This document shows, piece by piece, positions 1 through 48,939 of a DNA stretch of 64,000 bases; position 1 is the stretch's first letter; each line of letters starts with the position of its first letter. Below the pieces are notes generated by a model that saw nothing but the letters and a program-made list of their open reading frames with translations, was not told the DNA's origin and did no database searches. Position numbers and translations under genes: made by a program. This DNA is from Hyphomicrobiaceae bacterium (GTDB lineage: Bacteria; Pseudomonadota; Alphaproteobacteria; Rhizobiales; Hyphomicrobiaceae), in assembly GCA_021730785.1 (NCBI GenBank), contig JAKFWF010000065.1, forward strand, positions 62,001 through 126,000, given 5' to 3'.

Positions 1-730
1 ATAGCGCCCGCCCGTAGGCAACGCCCGATGCCAGCAGCCAGGCCAGTTCCTGGGCGTCCGACGCGCCAGCTTCACTTGCCGGCCGGCCGTCGCAGGTGAT
101 GAACGGTCCGGCAAACCCGTCGGCACGCAGTTCGCCGATGCTCGTGGCAAGCTGCCGGCCGGTTTCGGGCCAGGTCTGCTTGTCGCGTGAGGCGCTATGG
201 GTCCCAATCGGATCGAAGCCGAAGGACACGTTGAGCCGCGTCGCGTCATGCCCGCGCCTCGCGCACAGGGCAGCAAAACGGCGGGCACTCGCTGCCGGCT
301 CGGCGTGCGGCTCGAAGCGCACGTGGATGAGGTCGAGCAGGACGCCATCAAGGCAGGCGGCCATGTCACGGTCGGTATCGATTGCAACTCCGAAGCCGCG
401 CGCCACTGGACTTCCCGCAACGGCGAGCGACAGCCCATTCGCGCCTCCCGTCAGGTCGGCCAACGCCAGTTCCGCTGCCACGGCGGGATCGGGATGATCG
501 ACGCGCGCCAGGATGGCCCATGGCCGGCCGGCCGTGCCGCCCGTCACGGCTTCGGCGCCGCTCGCCCGGTCATAGAGCGGTTCGATCGCCAGCCCATCAT
601 GGGTCTTTGCCACTAGTCGGCGGTTGAAATCGGCACCCTTGAGTGCTTTTGCCACCAGCGCTACCCAGTCATCGCGGGTGGCGTGGCCAAATCCCGTGGT
701 CAGTGGCGGCAGGTCTGCAACATCGGTCAT
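1..730 (-). CDS. mutA: Methylmalonyl-CoA mutase small (beta) subunit, 5' part
   Basis: The reading frame begins with ATG at 730 and stays open to the left edge, so the 3' end lies outside the window. The protein starts MTDVADLPPLTTGFG and carries the family's opening pattern: a tryptophan followed by a leucine-lysine-glycine turn (WVALVAKALKGADF), then a KTHDGLAIEPLYDR segment, then an alternating TIM-barrel-like region. This matches the non-catalytic small subunit of heterodimeric methylmalonyl-CoA mutase, which supports the B12-binding MutB subunit in converting methylmalonyl-CoA and succinyl-CoA (propionyl-CoA pathway). mutB would be expected just left of the window. The family call is from recognised sequence pattern; an alternative is the small subunit of a related acyl-CoA mutase. 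Confidence 0.82.
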   Translation of the reverse strand, partial: MTDVADLPPLTTGFGHATRDDWVALVAKALKGADFNRRLVAKTHDGLAIEPLYDRASGAEAVTGGTAGRPWAILARVDHPDPAVAAELALADLTGGANGLSLAVAGSPVARGFGVAIDTDRDMAACLDGVLLDLIHVRFEPHAEPAASARRFAALCARRGHDATRLNVSFGFDPIGTHSASRDKQTWPETGRQLATSIGELRADGFAGPFITCDGRPASEAGASDAQELAWLLASGVAYGRAL

Positions 731-40319: not shown

Positions 40320-40627
40320 GTGAAGCTCGGGTCTTGTCGGGTCACAACTGACAAAATCGCGCGCCCGTTACTGCTGGTGGCAGACAGGCTGAAGGCACAC
40401 ACGGACGCGCTGCAAAGGCTCGACCACAGGCGGGACGCTCCCTGATAACCACGAGAAAGTTGCGATGCTGCGCCAGACGATTCGATTGATGCTTGCGGCG
40501 CGGTTCAAAGGCGTAGGAACGATAATTGCACAACACGAAAAGTTGATTGCTATGAAACGCGCAGCAGATTTGCGTCCGTAGTATACCACCGCCGTTTCGT
40601 GCAGCAACCGAACAACCAGGGATCATA
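40320..40627. other. Intergenic region, no gene seen
   Basis: 308 bases between the small membrane protein and the catalase-fold gene. No RNA gene or terminator is evident. It should hold the catalase-gene promoter. Confidence 0.45.
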
Positions 40628-41623
40628 ATGCTCTCTCGAACCGTCACAAGCACACTCGCCATATCCGTCGTATCCTGGGTCGGGACCATGTCAGGTTCCG
40701 CCATCGCCCAGACGGTAACGCCCGAAGCGGTCGCAAACGTAATGCGCACATTGGGTGGCCCGGTGAAGGCCCGGCCCAGCGGCGCCAAGGGCCAATGCTT
40801 CGTCGGCACGTTCACACCGACGGCAGAAGCCAAAACACTGACCAAATCGGTCGCCTTCGAAAAGGCATCGAAGGTCGTGGCACGGTTCTCGGTCGGCAGC
40901 GGCAATCCGAAGGTCATGGATAGCAGCAAGGCCGTCAACCGGGGCTTCTCGTTCCGCATCGACGACGGCGGCAAGGGCCAGACAGAATTCGTGATGGTCA
41001 ATGCGCCGATCAACTTCGTCAAGTCGCCCGACCAGATGCTGGGCTTCCTGCAGGCACGGTTGCCGGGCGCCGACGGCAAGCCTGATCCGGAAAAGATCAA
41101 GGCGTTCGCCGAGGCCAATCCCGAGACGACGCTGCAGGGCAAATACCTGGCGAGCAAGCCGGTGCCAGCCTCCTGGGTCGGCGTCAGCTACTGGGGCATT
41201 CACGGCTACACGATGACGAACGCCAGCGGCGCCAAGCAACTCGTCAAGTTCCGCATGGTCCCGCTCGCCGGCGAACTGGGACTGACGGACGATGAAGCGA
41301 AGGCCAAGGGGGGCGATTTCCTGGTCGACGAACTGAAGGGTCGCATCGAGTCGAAGGCGCCGGCCGGCTTCGAGATGGTGGCACTCATGGGTCGCGCCGG
41401 CGACGAGAAAACCAACGCCACGCAGATGTGGGACGACGAGGACAAGCGCACGCAAGTCAAGCTCGGCACGTTGACGATCACGGCGCTCGAGAAGAACGAG
41501 ACCTGCGACGGCGGGATCTTCGATCCGCTGACCCTTGCCGCCGGCCTCGAGGGACCTGCCGATGAGCCACTGTTCACAGCCCGCCAGCCGGCCTACGCCG
41601 TGTCGTTCGGACAGCGCAATTGA
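40628..41623 (+). CDS. Secreted catalase-fold (SrpA-like) protein lacking the distal His
   Basis: 331 residues with a signal peptide (about 1-27). The chain follows the catalase-family peroxidase pattern: GAKGQCFVGTFTPTAEAKTL, FEKASKVVARFSVGSGNPK, RGFSFRIDDGGKGQTEFVMV, WVGVSYWGIHGYTMTNASG, and a C-terminal FDPLTLAAGLEGPADEPLF. The usual HAKG motif, which carries the distal catalytic His, reads SGAKG here (Gly52). Related proteins decompose H2O2 or use it as peroxidases in the periplasm. The missing His means peroxide chemistry is doubtful. RBS AGGGA is present and a strong terminator follows. Confidence 0.78.
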   Translation: MLSRTVTSTLAISVVSWVGTMSGSAIAQTVTPEAVANVMRTLGGPVKARPSGAKGQCFVGTFTPTAEAKTLTKSVAFEKASKVVARFSVGSGNPKVMDSSKAVNRGFSFRIDDGGKGQTEFVMVNAPINFVKSPDQMLGFLQARLPGADGKPDPEKIKAFAEANPETTLQGKYLASKPVPASWVGVSYWGIHGYTMTNASGAKQLVKFRMVPLAGELGLTDDEAKAKGGDFLVDELKGRIESKAPAGFEMVALMGRAGDEKTNATQMWDDEDKRTQVKLGTLTITALEKNETCDGGIFDPLTLAAGLEGPADEPLFTARQPAYAVSFGQRN

Positions 41624-41654
41624 ATTGATCGTGCGCTGACTGACTAGATAAGTG

Positions 41655-41686
41655 AGGCGGATGGGCCATGCTCCATCCGCCTTTTT
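41655..41686 (+). terminator. Intrinsic terminator of the catalase-fold gene
   Basis: AGGCGGATGG (41655-41664), eight-base loop, CCATCCGCCT (41673-41682), then a T-run to 41686. It reads in the catalase-gene direction, and the stem's mirror could also serve transcripts of the convergent fad operon. Confidence 0.85.
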
Positions 41687-41737: not shown

Positions 41738-43042
41738 TTACGCCGCCGCCCGCATCTCGCCCGCCTTCGCGCTCTCCAGGATCGCGGTGACGCCCATGCC
41801 GCCGGCCGTGCACACCGAGATCAGGCCGCGGCCGCCCTTCTGCGACAGCAGCTTGGCGAGGTTCGCGGTGATGCGCGCGCCGGTCGCGGCGAACGGATGG
41901 CCGAACGCCAGCGACGAGCCCATCACGTTCAACTTGGCGCGGTCGATTGCACCCAGCGGCTGGTCGAGACCGAGATGCTGGCGGCAGTACGCAGGGTCCT
42001 CCCAGGCCTTCAGGGTGGCCAGCACCTGGGCGGCGAAGGCCTCGTGGATCTCGTAGAAGTCGAAGTCCTGCAGGGTTAGGCCGGCGCGCTTCAGCATCTT
42101 TGCCACCGCAATCGTCGGCGCCATCAGCAAGCCCTCGCCGGCCGTGAAGTTGTTGGCCGAGGTCTGGTAGTGCGTGAGGTAGGCGAGGATCGGCAGGCCA
42201 CGTTCGCGCGCCCATTCCTCGGACGCCACCAGAACGCAGGCCGCGCCGTCGGTCAGCGGCGTCGAGTTGGCAGCCGTCATGGTGCCCTTGTCCGACTTGT
42301 CGAAGGCTGGCTTCAAGGTTGCGATCTTGTCGAGACTGATATCGCTGCGCACGTTGTTGTCGCGGAACACGCCTGCACACGGCACCAGCAGATCGTCCAT
42401 GTAGCCCGACGCGTAGGCCGCGGTCGCCTTGCGGTGGCTGTCGAACGCCAGTTGGTCCTGCTCGGCGCGGCTGACGTGGAACTCCTTGGCCATCAGCTCG
42501 CAGTGCTGGCCCATGCTGAGCCCGGTGCGCGGCTCGGCGACGGACGGGGCCATTGGCGCCAACTCGCCGAACGAGAAGCCCTTGAAGGCCTTGAGCTTGC
42601 CGCCGAACGACTTCTGCAGCGGAACTTCCTTGAGGCGGCCAGCGAGCTTCTTCGACACGACGATGGGGGGATCCGACGTCGTGTCCGATCCAACCGCGAT
42701 ACCGCACTCGATCTCGCCGGCCGCGATCTTGGCGCCGATGCCCATGGCCGCCTGCAGCGATGTCCCGCAGGCCTGGATCATGGTGATGCCGGGTGTCGAG
42801 GGCGCGAGCTTGGTCGACATCACCGCTTCGCGCGCGATGTTCCAGTCCTTCGAGTGGGTGACGACGGCGCCGCCCACCACCTCGTCGATATGGGCGCCTG
42901 ACAGCTTGTACTTGTCGACAAGCCCATTGAGCGCCGCCGTCATCATGTCGAGGTTCGACTGATCGGCATACAACGTGTTCGAGCGGCAGAACGGGATGCG
43001 CACGCCCCCGACAATGGCGACACGGCGAAGGGATTGGGTCAT
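41738..43042 (-). CDS. fadI: Acetyl-CoA C-acyltransferase (FadI-like thiolase)
   Basis: 434 residues. Thiolase signatures: MTQSLRRVAIVGGVRIPF at the N-terminus, QACGTSLQAAMGIGAKIA with the nucleophilic Cys, NSTPLTDGAACVLVAS, HEAFAAQVLATL with the catalytic His region, FGHPFAATGARI and the C-terminal CTAGGMGVTAI with the second Cys. The enzyme cleaves 3-ketoacyl-CoA to acetyl-CoA in beta-oxidation. It is the last gene of the fadE-fadJ-fadI unit, but the 5' region is displaced: a 47-bp copy of its first codons lies 919 bases upstream beyond a toxin-antitoxin pair. Confidence 0.93.
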   Translation of the reverse strand: MTQSLRRVAIVGGVRIPFCRSNTLYADQSNLDMMTAALNGLVDKYKLSGAHIDEVVGGAVVTHSKDWNIAREAVMSTKLAPSTPGITMIQACGTSLQAAMGIGAKIAAGEIECGIAVGSDTTSDPPIVVSKKLAGRLKEVPLQKSFGGKLKAFKGFSFGELAPMAPSVAEPRTGLSMGQHCELMAKEFHVSRAEQDQLAFDSHRKATAAYASGYMDDLLVPCAGVFRDNNVRSDISLDKIATLKPAFDKSDKGTMTAANSTPLTDGAACVLVASEEWARERGLPILAYLTHYQTSANNFTAGEGLLMAPTIAVAKMLKRAGLTLQDFDFYEIHEAFAAQVLATLKAWEDPAYCRQHLGLDQPLGAIDRAKLNVMGSSLAFGHPFAATGARITANLAKLLSQKGGRGLISVCTAGGMGVTAILESAKAGEMRAAA

Positions 43043-43044
43043 GG
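42998..43044. repeat. 47-bp direct repeat, copy A (fadI 5' end)
   Basis: This stretch includes the fadI start and first 15 codons. It matches 43917-43963 with one mismatch (A/T). The two copies flank the MntA/HepT pair and the hybrid frame. Confidence 0.95.
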
Positions 43045-43091
43045 TTGGGCTCGCATTGATTGAATTGTTTCCGATACGGCTGGGCTGATAT

Positions 43092-43451
43092 TCAAGGAGC
43101 AGACTCTGGTGGCAGAGATGCCAAGATCTCCTGCATAACGTGCTGCAATTCAGGCAATGAGACGGTCGCGATCCGCCAGATCAAATGATCGTCGTCGCGG
43201 CCGTATTCGTGTCGCAATAGGTTGCCGATGGCGCGGATGCTCTTCCACGGAACATCCGGGTACCGGTGAGTGACCTCCGCGGGCAAATGTCGACAGGCCT
43301 CCGAGATGATCTCGACGCAGCGCTCGACCATTCTGCGCAACGGCAGGTTCTGAACATAAGCCTCCTCTCGAACGCTCTTCATCGCGGCCGACACTGTGGC
43401 GATTTCCACCAGAATGTCTTCGATCCGGAATTTGTACTCGCTCGGCTGCAT
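43092..43451 (-). CDS. hepT: HepT-like toxin (DUF86 RNase)
   Basis: 119 residues, helical throughout. The DUF86 pattern is present: VREEAYVQNLPLRRMVERCVEIISEACRHL and WKSIRAIGNLLRHEYGR, where the GN-x-L-R-H-x-Y segment corresponds to the HepT R-x4-6-H active site in a variant form. HepT proteins are HEPN-fold RNases neutralised by an MntA nucleotidyltransferase that AMPylates a Tyr (type VII system). The start is one base behind the mntA stop, so the two are coupled. Placed inside the fad operon. Confidence 0.82.
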   Translation of the reverse strand: MQPSEYKFRIEDILVEIATVSAAMKSVREEAYVQNLPLRRMVERCVEIISEACRHLPAEVTHRYPDVPWKSIRAIGNLLRHEYGRDDDHLIWRIATVSLPELQHVMQEILASLPPESAP

Positions 43452-43452
43452 T

Positions 43453-43749
43453 TCAAATTACGCGCAAACTGGATTTCTCGATCCGCGCTCGTAACGCTGG
43501 ATGGAGCGATGGCCTGGTCAACAGGTCGACCTTGCGCCGTAGCGAACTCGACAAAAATTCTTGAAGTTCAAGAAACTCGACGAACGAAAACGAGCCAGCG
43601 GGATCATAGTCAAGAAAAAGGTCGATATCGCTGTCGGGTCCTAGTTCATCGCGTGCTGCCGAGCCGTAGAGATAAAGCGCTGTCGCGTTGAACCGGCGAA
43701 TTGTCGACTCGTGCCTCCGGAGGGTCGCGATAACATCTTCGCGCGTCAT
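43453..43749 (-). CDS. mntA: MntA-like antitoxin nucleotidyltransferase
   Basis: 98 residues starting at ATG 43749 (a GTG precedes it), with GGAGGG upstream. The minimal nucleotidyltransferase signature LYGSAARDELGPDSDIDLFLD is intact (G-S-x-A-R ... S-D-I-D-L). In type VII systems MntA AMPylates HepT and silences it. The ATG overlaps the stop of the hybrid fragment frame (TGATG). C-terminal RRKVDLLTRPSL is typical of MntA. It is upstream of hepT, the usual order. Confidence 0.85.
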   Translation of the reverse strand: MTREDVIATLRRHESTIRRFNATALYLYGSAARDELGPDSDIDLFLDYDPAGSFSFVEFLELQEFLSSSLRRKVDLLTRPSLHPALRARIEKSSLRVI

Positions 43750-43961
43750 CACAACGTCCCTCCGAGTTCAATGTGCCGCTGCGGCACCGCCGCGACCGCG
43801 CCTTCCCTCGCCGTGAAATGCAGTGGGCCACCGCGCAACAGCGCGATGCCGACTTTGACGGTGGCACTGGCGTCGTCCAGGTCGGCATCAGAAATGGTTA
43901 CACAGCAGAACCGCAGGCGCACGCCCCCGACATTGGCGACACGGCGAAGGGATTGGGTCAT
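43749..43961 (-). pseudogene. Hybrid fossil frame: fadI start joined to a FadJ-like tail
   Basis: A 70-residue frame whose first 15 residues copy the FadI N-terminus (MTQSLRRVANVGGVR, one substitution), then a short junction, then SDADLDDASATVKVGIALLRGGPLHFTAREGAV, homologous to the last 45 residues of the FadJ protein encoded at 44296 (RGGPLHFKASEGKVV). Its start overlaps the stop of the pentapeptide gene (ATGA) and its stop overlaps the mntA start (TGATG). It is a recombination scar rather than a functional enzyme. Confidence 0.8.
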
Positions 43962-43963
43962 GG
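43917..43963. repeat. 47-bp direct repeat, copy B
   Basis: Second copy of the fadI 5' end sequence (see 42998-43044), with one mismatch. Its ATG opens the hybrid frame. The repeats lie 919 bases apart, in the same orientation. Confidence 0.95.
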
Positions 43964-44263
43964 CTCAGTTTTCTGGGTTCGATAGGCGGAGAACAGATCA
44001 GTGACGGCGATGCCGTCGATCGTCATCCCGTCGAGCTTGCAGTTCATGATCGATGCGCCGGCCAGATTGGCGTTGCTCAGCTTGATTCCGGACGCATTGG
44101 CGTTATCGAGCGACAGGCCTGAGATGTTCACGTCATCGACCCTCCAGCCCGACATATTGACATTACGGAAGGTTGCGCCGGCAAAGTTTACGTCGTCGAA
44201 TTTCGAGCCAGACAGGTCAGCCACCGATACGTCGAGCCGATGTTTTTCCTTGGTGATCTTCAC
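43958..44263 (-). CDS. Pentapeptide repeat protein
   Basis: 101 residues from GTG 44263 with AAGGAG upstream. The chain consists of A-x-L/F-x-x type units (VADLSGSKFDDVNFAGATFRN, SGLSLDNANASGIKLSNANL, AGASIMNCKLDGM), enough for a short right-handed quadrilateral beta-helix. Pentapeptide proteins can mimic DNA or act as scaffolds; no specific role is shown. It is 32 bases behind fadJ and overlaps the start of the hybrid frame, so it is part of the fad transcript. Confidence 0.8.
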   Translation of the reverse strand: MKITKEKHRLDVSVADLSGSKFDDVNFAGATFRNVNMSGWRVDDVNISGLSLDNANASGIKLSNANLAGASIMNCKLDGMTIDGIAVTDLFSAYRTQKTEP

Positions 44264-44295
44264 GGCACTAGCTCTCCTTGAAGCGGCCCGGGGAC

Positions 44296-46290
44296 CTACT
44301 CCGCCGCCTGCCGCTGCGGCATGGCCACGACCTTGCCTTCGCTGGCCTTGAAGTGCAGCGGGCCGCCACGGAACGGCGCGAAGCCGGTGCCGAAGATCAC
44401 GCCGGCATCGACCAGATCGGCGGTGTCGACGACGCGCTCGTCGCGCGCCCGCTCCGCCTCGGCGATCAATGGCTGAACGAGTTCGCGCCCGAGCCGTTCG
44501 AGCGCCGACTTGGTGGTCGATAGCTCGCTCTTCACGGGCTTGCCGTCCTTCCAGACATAGAAGCCCTTGCCGGACTTCTTGCCGAGATTGCCGGCGGCGA
44601 CCAGCTTGTCGAGGGCCGAGCCCTCCGGATTGTTCTTCAGAATCTTGCCGACGTGGGCGCACACGTCGAGGCCAACCGTATCGGCAAGTTCGATCGGCCC
44701 CATCGGCATGCCGAAGGTGCGCGCCGCCTCGTCGATCTTTTCCTTGCTCTCGCCGGCCTGCATGCGGGCCATCGCCGCCATCATGTAGGGGGCGAGCACG
44801 CGATTGACCAGGAAGCCCGGCACGCTCTTCACGATCAGCGGGAACTTGTCGATCGCGGTGACGAACACCGCCCCCTTCTTCACTTCCTCGTCGCGCGAGG
44901 TCGCCCCGCGCACGATCTCCACCAGCGGCATCTGCGCCACCGGATTGAAGAAGTGAATGCCGATCAGGCGGCCGGGATCGGCGAGCCCGCGGGCGATATC
45001 CTCGATCATGATCGACGACGTGTTCGACGCCATGACGGCTCCCGGCTTCAAGCGACCCTCAATGCCGCGGAACAGCGATTGCTTGACCTCGAGCCGCTCG
45101 ACGATCGCCTCGATGACGACGTCGGCACGGGCAAGCCCATCGCCGTTCGGATCGGCGATCAGGCGGGCGCTGGCGGCATCCTGCAGGGCCTTGGTCTTGA
45201 ACTTGCGACGAAGCGTCTTGGCTTGCGCCTTGATGCCCTTGGCGATCGCCTCGGCGTTGAGATCCTGCAGCGTGACCTCCATACCCGATGCCACGCACCA
45301 GCCGGCGATGTCGGCACCCATTGTGCCGGCGCCGATCACGTGCACGCGCATCGGCTTGAAACCGAGGCCTTTGGGCGCCTGTGCCTTCAACTGCTCCGAC
45401 AGGGCGAACACGCGGCGCAGATTGCGCGAGGTGTCGCTCACCATCAGCGGGGCAAATGCCGGCGTCTCGGCCTTCTTCAGGGCATTGAGGTCACCGCCGT
45501 GCTTCTCGAACAGATCGATCAGGCGGAACGGGGCTGGATAATGATCCTCGCGCACCTTCTTCGCGGTCTCGGCGCGCATCTTGCCGGCCAGGAACCCGCG
45601 CGCCGGCCACTTTGCCATCAGCGCCGTCGTTCCAGCAGCCGGCTTCGAGCGACGCTTCTGCTGCACAGCCTTACGTGCAGCCCAGCGCAACGCCTGCGGA
45701 CTGGCGACCAGTTCGTCGATGAGCCCCATGCCGCGGGCCGCCGTCGAGCGGATCATCGAGCCGGTCAGCATCGTCGTCATGGCCTGCATGGCGCCGGCTT
45801 GCCGGATCGAGCGCGCCGTACCGTTGAAGCCCGGGAAGATGCCGAGTTTCACCTCGGGAAAGCCGACGCGGGTCGCATCGTCGCGCGTCGCGATGCGATA
45901 GTGGCACGCCAGCACCAGCTCGAGCCCGCCGCCGAGGCACAGGCCATGGATGGCCGCGACAACTGGAATGGAGAGCCTCTCCAACCGGTCGAGCATCGCG
46001 TTCACTGGGCGAAGGTTCTCGATCACCTTGGCTTCGCTGTCGAAGGCCTCGAACTCGCGGATGTCGGCGCCGACGATGAAGCCCTTGTCCTTGCCCGACA
46101 TGATCACGAGGCCGGCGATGCTCTTGTCGGCGGCCCCCTTCTCGGCGAAATCGACGATCGCCATCAGTTCCTCGATCGGCCGGCGGCCGAGCGAATTCGC
46201 GCTCTCGCCTTCGCGATCGAAGGTCACCCAGGCGATGTTCTCCTGATCGACCGCGACTTTCCAATCCTTGAGCGATTCAATGACGGACAT
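44296..46290 (-). CDS. fadJ: Trifunctional-type enoyl-CoA hydratase/3-hydroxyacyl-CoA dehydrogenase (FadJ-like)
   Basis: 664 residues from ATG 46290 with AAGGAG upstream (a longer frame to 46317 is rejected). The N-terminal crotonase domain has GLCLGGGLELVLACHYRIA with the catalytic Glu, and the second Glu is in FPEVKLGIFPGFNGT. The C-terminal NAD-binding domain has VHVIGAGTMGADIAGWCVASG and the dehydrogenase IHFFNPVAQMPLVEIVRG. It catalyses hydration and oxidation in fatty acid beta-oxidation. It is the second gene of the fadE-fadJ-fadI unit. Confidence 0.95.
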   Translation of the reverse strand: MSVIESLKDWKVAVDQENIAWVTFDREGESANSLGRRPIEELMAIVDFAEKGAADKSIAGLVIMSGKDKGFIVGADIREFEAFDSEAKVIENLRPVNAMLDRLERLSIPVVAAIHGLCLGGGLELVLACHYRIATRDDATRVGFPEVKLGIFPGFNGTARSIRQAGAMQAMTTMLTGSMIRSTAARGMGLIDELVASPQALRWAARKAVQQKRRSKPAAGTTALMAKWPARGFLAGKMRAETAKKVREDHYPAPFRLIDLFEKHGGDLNALKKAETPAFAPLMVSDTSRNLRRVFALSEQLKAQAPKGLGFKPMRVHVIGAGTMGADIAGWCVASGMEVTLQDLNAEAIAKGIKAQAKTLRRKFKTKALQDAASARLIADPNGDGLARADVVIEAIVERLEVKQSLFRGIEGRLKPGAVMASNTSSIMIEDIARGLADPGRLIGIHFFNPVAQMPLVEIVRGATSRDEEVKKGAVFVTAIDKFPLIVKSVPGFLVNRVLAPYMMAAMARMQAGESKEKIDEAARTFGMPMGPIELADTVGLDVCAHVGKILKNNPEGSALDKLVAAGNLGKKSGKGFYVWKDGKPVKSELSTTKSALERLGRELVQPLIAEAERARDERVVDTADLVDAGVIFGTGFAPFRGGPLHFKASEGKVVAMPQRQAAE

Positions 46291-46345
46291 GATCAACTCC
46301 TTGTTTTCTCCTCGCAACGCCCGAGCGGCGGTCGAGGAAAAGCTC

Positions 46346-48847
46346 CTACTCGGCCGCTGATTGCACCGCGCGCATGTTGTGGCCCACGGTCATGAAATTC
46401 GGCCGCACCTCGGCCGGGTCGAAATGGTCGACCGCGATCACGCGGGCGGTCAGGGCTTCGACCTCGCGCAACAGCGCGCCTTCGCTCTCGCTGATCACCT
46501 TGGCACTGACCGCGTCGCCGATCCAGTCGATCCCGTGATAGCGCTTGACGATGCCGTCGCGCACTGCACGATCGAGCTTCTTTTCAGCTGGCGCCGCGGC
46601 GATCACTTTTTCCAGCGTGACTTCGAGGATCCCGGTCGGATCATTCACGTCCCTCGACACGAACATGAAGCGGGTCAGACGGTCGCGCACCTCGCCCGGT
46701 TCGCATGCGATCCGCACCACCTCGTGAGCGAGTTGGTCGGGTGCCGGGTGGTAGTGCCCGCCGAGCGGATAGACGAGCGCACGCATCAGGATGCGGGCCC
46801 ACATGACGGGGAAGTTCTCGATCGTGCCGCGCAGGGCGACCTGGAACCGGTAGAGGCCGTTCTGGGCCGCCATGGCAACGATCACCTGGTCGGCGGCCGG
46901 CTTGCCGTCATCTTCGTAGCGCTTCAACACGCAGCTCAGCATGTAAAGCTCCGAGAGCGCATCGGCGAGGCGGCCGGTCAACTTCTGCTTGACCTTGAGG
47001 CCGCCGCCCAGCAGCGCCACCGTCAGATCGGCGACGACCGCGAAGTTGCGCGAAGAGCGCGACAGCTGGCGATACCATTCGGCCGTGCCGTAGGACTTCT
47101 CCGGCACATGCGCGAACCGGCCCGCCGTCAGGTTATGGAATAGCGCGCCGAAAATATTGCCGACGGTGAAACCAATGTGGCCGAGGAACGCTGCCTCGAA
47201 TGCTTCAAGCCCGCGCTTCGTATCCATGTCCTGTACCGCCTTCACCTCCTTGTAGAGGTAGGGGTGCGAGCGCAGCGCCCCTTGCGCGAACGTGATCAGC
47301 GTGCGGGTCAGGATGTTCGCGCCCTCGACGGTGATGCCGACCGGCACCGCCTGGTAGGCCGCCTGGATGTAGTTGGTCGGGCCATCGCAGATGGCGCGGC
47401 CGCCGTGGATGTCCATGGCATCGTTGACGGTGCGGCGCATGCGCTCGGTGGTTTGGTACTTCATGAGGGCCGAGATCACCGACGGCTTCTCGCCGCGGGC
47501 GACCATCGCCGCCGTGACGCCACGGGCCGCCTCGTTGACATAGGCTGTCTCGACCATGCGGCCGAGCGGCTCCTCGATGCCCTCCATGCGTGCGATCGGC
47601 AGGCCGAACTGCTTGCGGATGCGCGTGTAGGCCGTGGTGAAGCGCAACATGGCCTTGGCGGCAGCCGTTGCGGACGACGGCAGCGAGATTGCGCGGCCGG
47701 CGGCGAGGCATTCCATCAGCATGCGCCAGCCATGGCCGGCCATCTTCTGACCGCCGATCACCCATTCCATCGGAATGAACACGTCCTTGCCCCAGTTCGG
47801 GCCGTTCGGGAACGCCGAGCCGCTCGGCAGGTGGCGGCGGCCGATGTTGACGCCGGGGTGGTCGGCTGGAATGAGCGCCAGCGTGATGCCGACATCGGCT
47901 TTGTCGCCGATCAGCTTTTCCGGATCGAACAGGCGGAAGGCGAGGCCGACCAGCGTCGCCTTGGGCCCGAGCGTGATGTAGCGCTTGTCCCAGGACAGGC
48001 GGATGCCCAGCGTCTCCGTGCCCTGGTGGGTGCCGCGCACCACGGTACCGATGTCGCGCATGGTGGCTGCGTCCGAGCCCGAGGTCGGCCCGGTCAGCGA
48101 GAAGCAGGGGATGTCGAGGCCCTTGGCGAGGCGCGGCAGGTAATGGTGCTTCTGCTGGTCGGTACCGTACTTCTCGATCAGTTCGCCGGGTCCAAGCGAG
48201 TTCGGCACCATCACGATCGTGCAGACATCGGGCGAGCGCGAGGCGATCTTGCCCAGGATCAGCGATTGCGCCTGGGCCGAGAAACCAAGCCCGCCGTGCT
48301 CCTTCGAGATCAGCATGCCAAGGAACCCATGGCGGCCGACGAACTTCCAGATCTCGTCGGGAATATCCTTGTCGTTGAAGCGGATCTTCCAGTCGTCGAT
48401 CATGCGGCAGAGTTCGTCCGTCGGGCCATCGAGGAAGGCGCGCTCCTCGGCCGTCAGCACGATCGCCGGTACGGCGCGCAACTTTTCCCAGTCTGGATGG
48501 CCCGAGAACAGCTCGGCATCGAAGCCGATGGTGCCGGCGTCGAGTGCCTCCTGCTCGGTATCGGAGACCTTGGGCAGGATCTTTTTCACGATGCCGAAGG
48601 CCGGCTCCACCAGGATCTTGCGGCGCACCGCTGGGATGGCCATCAGGATGGCGATCAGCGCTGGAATGCAGGCAAGAAGCGACAGCAGCCCGAACTCGGG
48701 AGCAGCACCACTGTCGTCAAACACGCCCGAGATCCATGCGTAGGTCGCCACTACAGCAGCGACGGCCCAGAGCCACATGGGCGCGCGATTGATCGCCAGC
48801 GCCGTGACGGCAATGAAACACAACAGCAGAAACATCAGTTCAGCCAT
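46346..48847 (-). CDS. fadE: Long-chain acyl-CoA dehydrogenase FadE
   Basis: 833 residues starting at ATG 48847 (AGGAGG upstream), the length of FadE-type enzymes. Two N-terminal membrane helices (MAELMFLLLCFIAVTALAIN and PMWLWAVAAVVATYAWISG) precede the acyl-CoA dehydrogenase domains; FGFLGMLISKEHGGLGFSAQ-like (RHGFLGMLISKEHGGLGFS), CFSLTGPTSGSDAATM, and FALPIARMEGIEEPLGRM are recognisable. The C-terminal DUF1974 region is present. It makes the trans-2-enoyl-CoA for FadJ. A sigma-70-like promoter with an operator palindrome lies upstream at 48911-48939. Confidence 0.94.
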   Translation of the reverse strand: MAELMFLLLCFIAVTALAINRAPMWLWAVAAVVATYAWISGVFDDSGAAPEFGLLSLLACIPALIAILMAIPAVRRKILVEPAFGIVKKILPKVSDTEQEALDAGTIGFDAELFSGHPDWEKLRAVPAIVLTAEERAFLDGPTDELCRMIDDWKIRFNDKDIPDEIWKFVGRHGFLGMLISKEHGGLGFSAQAQSLILGKIASRSPDVCTIVMVPNSLGPGELIEKYGTDQQKHHYLPRLAKGLDIPCFSLTGPTSGSDAATMRDIGTVVRGTHQGTETLGIRLSWDKRYITLGPKATLVGLAFRLFDPEKLIGDKADVGITLALIPADHPGVNIGRRHLPSGSAFPNGPNWGKDVFIPMEWVIGGQKMAGHGWRMLMECLAAGRAISLPSSATAAAKAMLRFTTAYTRIRKQFGLPIARMEGIEEPLGRMVETAYVNEAARGVTAAMVARGEKPSVISALMKYQTTERMRRTVNDAMDIHGGRAICDGPTNYIQAAYQAVPVGITVEGANILTRTLITFAQGALRSHPYLYKEVKAVQDMDTKRGLEAFEAAFLGHIGFTVGNIFGALFHNLTAGRFAHVPEKSYGTAEWYRQLSRSSRNFAVVADLTVALLGGGLKVKQKLTGRLADALSELYMLSCVLKRYEDDGKPAADQVIVAMAAQNGLYRFQVALRGTIENFPVMWARILMRALVYPLGGHYHPAPDQLAHEVVRIACEPGEVRDRLTRFMFVSRDVNDPTGILEVTLEKVIAAAPAEKKLDRAVRDGIVKRYHGIDWIGDAVSAKVISESEGALLREVEALTARVIAVDHFDPAEVRPNFMTVGHNMRAVQSAAE

Positions 48848-48910
48848 CGACCAATCCTCCTGAAAATCGGTACCGGCACGCCCAAGGCCGCGCCGTCGTC
48901 CACTGCGGAT

Positions 48911-48939
48911 CTTATAATTCAACTTGACGTTAACGTCAA
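48911..48939 (-). promoter_or_regulatory. fadE promoter with overlapping palindromic operator
   Basis: Read on the minus strand, TTGACG (-35, 48939-48934), 17-base spacer, TATAAG (-10, 48916-48911), a near-consensus sigma-70 promoter about 64 bases before the fadE start. The perfect 16-bp palindrome TTGACGTTAACGTCAA (48924-48939) covers the -35 box and half the spacer, so a bound regulator would block RNA polymerase. The palindrome resembles operators of regulators of branched-chain or fatty acid catabolism (LiuR-like MerR or TetR family); the identity is inference. Confidence 0.75.

Follow-up and report, generated by a model that had tools for sequence, protein, structure and literature searches.

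The distal His is a defining catalytic residue of heme catalases, and the roles of Arg354, Tyr358 and Arg365 in human catalase are likewise established. At the small end of the fold, the solved structures 3e4w and 3e4y presumably represent MAP2744c of Mycobacterium avium paratuberculosis, a protein with peroxidase activity, and SrpA of Synechococcus PCC 7942 is, we assume, the product of one member of the family sample described below (L119). Replacement of the distal His is represented by the H54F mutant of the catalase from Proteus mirabilis, deposited as 3hb6 under the PDB title "Inactive mutant H54F of Proteus mirabilis catalase". No description of natural catalase-fold proteins that lack the distal His was found in the literature searched, a body outside which most subscription papers lie.

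The window, the 64,000-nucleotide stretch of DNA analysed here, encodes a natural protein of this kind. The gene at 40628..41623 on the + strand specifies 331 residues and, as judged from the ORF list, Pfam, a structural model and a structure match, a probably exported catalase-fold protein without the distal His. Like MAP2744c, the query protein has a small catalase fold that lacks the additional C-terminal portion found in full catalases, and the two align over 294 residues with a Z of 34.2 and 28% identity; unlike the query, MAP2744c keeps the distal His in a RALHAKG motif and has Leu at the site of N129. SrpA shares the same domain, a similar size, 36.5% identity and both Cys of a predicted disulfide, but its RRNHIKG motif includes the His. 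The H54F mutant resembles the query in its catalase fold and in the replacement of the distal His, but it is a full catalase and carries Phe rather than Gly at that site.

The gene stands alone between a gene for a family S58 peptidase, which is followed by a small unassigned ORF, and a convergent thiolase gene. The sequence-only reading had credited it with signals for export and for strong expression, namely a ribosome binding site and a strong terminator. The first two are supported: a signal peptide, probably of the Sec type, is evident at residues 1-27 (40628..40708, + strand, with AIA/QT at the cleavage site), and AGGGA at 40618..40622 (+ strand), 5 nt ahead of the ATG, is a probable ribosome binding site. 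The terminator does not stand out, given that the 12-pair terminator-like hairpin between the convergent genes (41654..41683, + strand) comes from a scan that counted 2 hairpins against a shuffle mean of 1.9. Export of the protein is probable from the evident signal peptide and from the model, in which residues 1-24 are unstructured, with pLDDT below 50.

On the opposite strand, adjoining the catalase-like gene, 41738-48922 (- strand) holds genes for beta-oxidation: a thiolase, an enoyl-CoA hydratase/3-hydroxyacyl-CoA dehydrogenase and a long acyl-CoA dehydrogenase. The interval that separates the thiolase gene from the multifunctional beta-oxidation gene holds, at 43092-43752 (- strand), genes for a HepT-like ribonuclease and a small nucleotidyltransferase that resemble a HepT/MntA-type pair, and the transferase also matches PADLOC PDC-S09. 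Immediately downstream, the multifunctional beta-oxidation gene is followed by one for a small pentapeptide-repeat protein (43958-44290, - strand).

Membership of the catalase family is supported both by profile and by fold. The Pfam catalase profile PF00199 matches residues 49-324 with an E value of 6.9e-23 and 81.8 bits, against a gathering score of 25, and the ORF is the sole PF00199 match found in the genome of the window. The sole NCBIfam match is catalase HPII, at 43 bits far below its cut-off of 1102. Among solved sequences the nearest is 3e4w (E 1.2e-28), the PDB title of which describes a 33-kDa catalase-related protein. An AlphaFold2 model built from 90 family rows has a mean pLDDT of 90.9, and a search with Foldseek and VIA-align places 3e4w and 3e4y at the top (Z 34) and full catalases below them (Z about 28-30), so that the model matches solved catalases with Z of 28-34 across about 280-294 residues. 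With 331 residues and 3e4w as its best match, the query has the single-domain small catalase fold of SrpA/MAP2744c-type catalase-related peroxidases, and the description of the chain as an SrpA-like member of the catalase family is borne out in this respect.

On the proximal side of the predicted heme site, the query has the Tyr and Arg partners of a monofunctional heme catalase (EC 1.11.1.6). R319, Y323, which would be the proximal heme ligand, and R330 (41582..41617, + strand) pair in the structural alignment with human Arg354, Tyr358 and Arg365, and the heme anchors R49, R86, R319, Y323 and R330 are invariant in 90 aligned rows. C57 (40796..40798, + strand) and C293 (41504..41506, + strand) rank first of all mutual-information pairs; 145 of the 162 rows have both, 14 lack both and 3 have just one. 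This covariation is consistent with a predicted disulfide in an exported protein.

The distal side differs. The motif is R49-P50-S51-G52-A53-K54-G55 (RPSGAKG; 40772..40792, + strand), with the codon of G52 at 40781-40783, whereas R-x-x-H-A-K-G or a near variant is found in catalases and in most aligned relatives, and the query thus has GAKG in place of the HAKG-type motif of SrpA/MAP2744c-type peroxidases. Sequence alignments around the motif are ungapped and place G52 on human His75 and Proteus His54. The structural alignment pairs residues 47..331 of the model with 70..366 of human catalase and 49..345 of Proteus catalase; it gives end points only, and the same pairing of G52 presumes that there is no gap in residues 47-52. 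The proposal that Gly replaces the distal His is therefore confirmed by the sequence alignments, with which the structural ranges agree. In the segment V124-N125-A-P-I-N129-F130 (40997..41017, + strand), alignment to 1hbz places V124 on the catalytic Asn148 of human catalase and N129 (41012-41014) on Phe153; M137 (41036..41038, + strand) falls on Phe161 of the heme pocket. The query thus lacks both the distal His and the distal Asn of a monofunctional heme catalase (EC 1.11.1.6). Its sole His, H192 (41201..41203, + strand), is away from the distal motif, in a segment aligned with the GSHTY segment of catalases, and therefore no other His can replace the one that was lost.

The distribution of the distal residue was followed in a family alignment of 162 rows, including the query, drawn from genome searches, extra regions and five plasmid records. 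Of 180 loci collected, 161 were aligned beside the query. The rest comprised L011 and L012, which represent the locus of the query itself, 2 duplicates and 13 long catalases, which were removed, and 2 loci without a match. The rows are a sample around the query (E cut 1e-20), fewer than the matches listed and with many close relatives, and proportions in it are not prevalences. The distal site in this sample holds His in 118 rows, Gly in 32, Phe in 9, Tyr in 1 and Gln in 1, with a gap in 1. The Tyr row is L159, with the motif RAIYAKG. The existence of a subgroup that shares the Gly, which the sequence-only reading had left to an alignment, is now evident, given that 18 of the 162 rows, the query included, are identical in RPSGAKG. 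These 18 rows form the query's clade and all carry N129; their named sources include metagenome-assembled genomes labelled Hyphomicrobium, Reyranellaceae, Devosia, Methylobacterium and Beijerinckiaceae, as well as Rhabdaerophilum sp. SD176. One genome (G019) holds two copies from the Gly clade on different contigs (L014 and L038).

The remaining 14 Gly rows comprise seven of RASGAKGV type, which include L116 (Methylobacterium bullatum) and L117 (M. aquaticum), L068, the pair L143 and L144, L146, and three from outside the class, namely L120 (Polaromonas) and L099 and L160, a pair of copies from a single genome in the same phylum. When the motif columns are left out of tree building, 6 changes are needed to account for the His, Gly and Phe states. 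A single origin of all 32 Gly rows is rejected by an AU test (p 3.8e-6), in a comparison against a quick tree that shares the long-branch problems of the model. Relatives of the query have lost the distal His more than once, which suggests recruitment of the fold to a different function.

A decaying gene or a sequencing error would also account for the missing His, and L066 and L067 (the Gln and gap rows), which cluster with the query's clade, have a missing or garbled distal motif and look like broken genes or assembly faults; some copies may thus be broken or misassembled. The identical motif in 18 rows, together with dN/dS of 0.11-0.16 between the query and four orthologues, argues that Gly52 is neither a read error nor chance. 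Over 13 pairs inside the clade dN/dS is 0.055-0.16, which indicates that the protein is under purifying selection. Decay is rejected on this conservation, and decay or error together are regarded as very improbable. Outside the clade, dN/dS is 0.26 for one pair of Methylobacterium-type Gly rows and 0.17 for one Phe pair.

Loss of the His is accompanied by other changes in the pocket. G52, N125, N129 and M137 are fixed in 18 of 18 members of the clade, and N129 occurs in none of the 118 His rows, which have Phe (115), Gln (2) or Leu (1) at that position. Ten positions are fixed in the clade yet occur in fewer than 6% of His rows, and four of the ten (50, 52, 129 and 137) align with human Val73, His75, Phe153 and Phe161, which are listed in the tables of human-catalase contacts in PMC8751451. 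Mutual information, computed without reference to the pocket, places 129 first and 124 second among the partners of column 52, although 52-129 comes only 145th among all 44253 pairs and such ranks are inflated by shared ancestry. N129 does not serve as a general compensation for Gly, since the other 14 of the 32 Gly rows keep Phe129; these rows also vary at position 130, and remodelling has thus differed among the Gly groups. Nor is V124 special to the query's clade, given that 88 of the 118 His rows also lack Asn at position 124.

A parallel change is seen in the Phe clade (L070, L073, L076, L077, L080, L082, L097, L098 and L118), all nine members of which combine F52 with H129, with Gln (7) or Glu (2) at position 124. 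In effect, to judge from the alignment, His and Phe have swapped two pocket positions, the 75 and 153 sites. The clade has the same His-to-Phe substitution as the Proteus H54F mutant, plus the His at 129. Met at position 137 is common to this clade and that of the query, whereas 100 of the 118 His rows have Phe there. The sequence-only reading had allowed that a different His might occupy the distal place; this is excluded for the query, where H192 alone is present and lies elsewhere, but a different His in the pocket may apply to the Phe clade.

The main rival to an enzyme with altered chemistry is a non-enzymatic periplasmic heme protein, a carrier, buffer or sensor with Tyr-ligated heme, which would need no distal catalyst. 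Retention of all of the proximal anchors after loss of the distal catalytic His fits such a protein, as does the isolation of the gene: no cytochrome b561 gene adjoins it, and clustering of ORFs around 35 regions, the window included, gave only few-region clusters besides the family gene, some of them probably spurious ORFs. No partner gene is accordingly put forward, although that negative is a weak one, since the ORF caller took ORFs that overlap the family gene in several regions. A protein that merely holds heme is harder to reconcile with a distal pocket that is strictly fixed in the clade, where 18 of 21 listed heme-pocket positions are invariant against 100 of 302 positions overall (a contrast inflated by the several that are invariant family-wide), or with the Phe clade, which puts a His back in the pocket. 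A non-enzymatic role is accordingly considered unlikely, if still to be taken seriously.

The genes for cytochrome b561 separate part of the family from the rest. In 45 of 51 members with an "RR..H" motif (for example L096 and L166), a cytochrome b561 gene is directly downstream on the same strand, at 12-66 bases; SrpA is an exception, with no b561 downstream. Cytochrome b561 is the presumed electron donor for the adjoining catalase-like protein, and the "RR..H" gene with its downstream b561 is likely to form a membrane-fed periplasmic peroxidase unit. Of the 67 other His members, two have a b561 neighbor, in both cases upstream, at distances of 172 and 214 bases. The search, over flanks of varied length, gave no b561 for 31 Gly loci (5 of them with fewer than 900 bases downstream), 9 Phe loci and 3 others. 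The profile behind these counts was built up from a single seed over two rounds and is not a Pfam model; a Pfam search of 20 genomes agrees with them. The query is outside the 31, and Pfam finds no b561 on its contig (C4), the five matches in its genome being on contigs C8, C19, C23, C34 and C36. Four genomes (G216, G292, G389 and G459) hold both kinds of gene, and in these it is the RRNHAKG gene, rather than the Gly or Phe one, that has b561 as its neighbor.

All 47 members found beside b561 keep the His, and the His has been lost only among members without b561. Absence of b561 does not single out the Gly forms, since 65 of the 67 other His members also lack it. The RASHAKG relatives, the nearest His kin of the query, are also without b561, so its absence probably preceded the loss of the His. 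The label "SrpA-like" consequently needs care, since b561 adjoins most of the "RR..H" members and none was found beside Gly or Phe loci.

These comparisons bear on whether the query is still an H2O2 peroxidase, with N129, water or the substrate in place of the distal His. The family does tolerate distal changes, as the many His rows without Asn at the Asn148 site attest, and the His relative L119 is annotated as a "catalase family peroxidase". The annotation says little, since L118 and L120, which lack the His, carry it too. The corresponding change of the distal His to Phe in the Proteus catalase is described by its PDB title as inactive, and the His is kept wherever b561 was found alongside. 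Retained peroxidase activity with H2O2 is thus thought improbable. Removal of H2O2 may in any case be covered in the host genome, since a KatG-type gene is present elsewhere in it, with two peroxidase domains in one 775-residue frame.

The substitution of the distal His, its conservation and recurrence, the accompanying pocket changes and the lack of a b561 neighbor are observed. The preferred reading, which is held at about even confidence, is that the query is an exported protein with Tyr-ligated heme, that its distal pocket has been rebuilt and that, instead of dismutating H2O2, it acts on another ligand or substrate. Heme would be bound via Tyr323 and the conserved arginines. On the inferred geometry, the distal pocket would have been rebuilt by loss of the catalytic His (G52), by Val at the Asn148 site and by a polar Asn (N129) at the Phe153 site. 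Compound I should not form from H2O2 by the His-assisted route, so that the protein should not be a catalase, and the altered, Asn-lined cavity would most likely serve another ligand or substrate, such as an organic peroxide, a small gas or a radical species. A broader proposal, advanced tentatively and with some doubt, is that remodelling of the distal site has, on more than one occasion, made the fold into a different periplasmic heme enzyme. The Phe clade would have done so by His75 to Phe and Phe153 to His, and the query's clade by Gly at 75 and Asn at 153, both with non-catalase chemistry and a substrate other than H2O2.

A family that naturally lacks the distal His offers ready-made variants with which to probe the catalase heme site without it, and one branch shows a His at a neighboring position in the pocket. 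"Catalase family peroxidase" labels may credit such proteins with an activity that is absent from them; among those so labelled are two plasmid-borne members without the His, L118 of Rhizobium (Phe) and L120 of Polaromonas (Gly).
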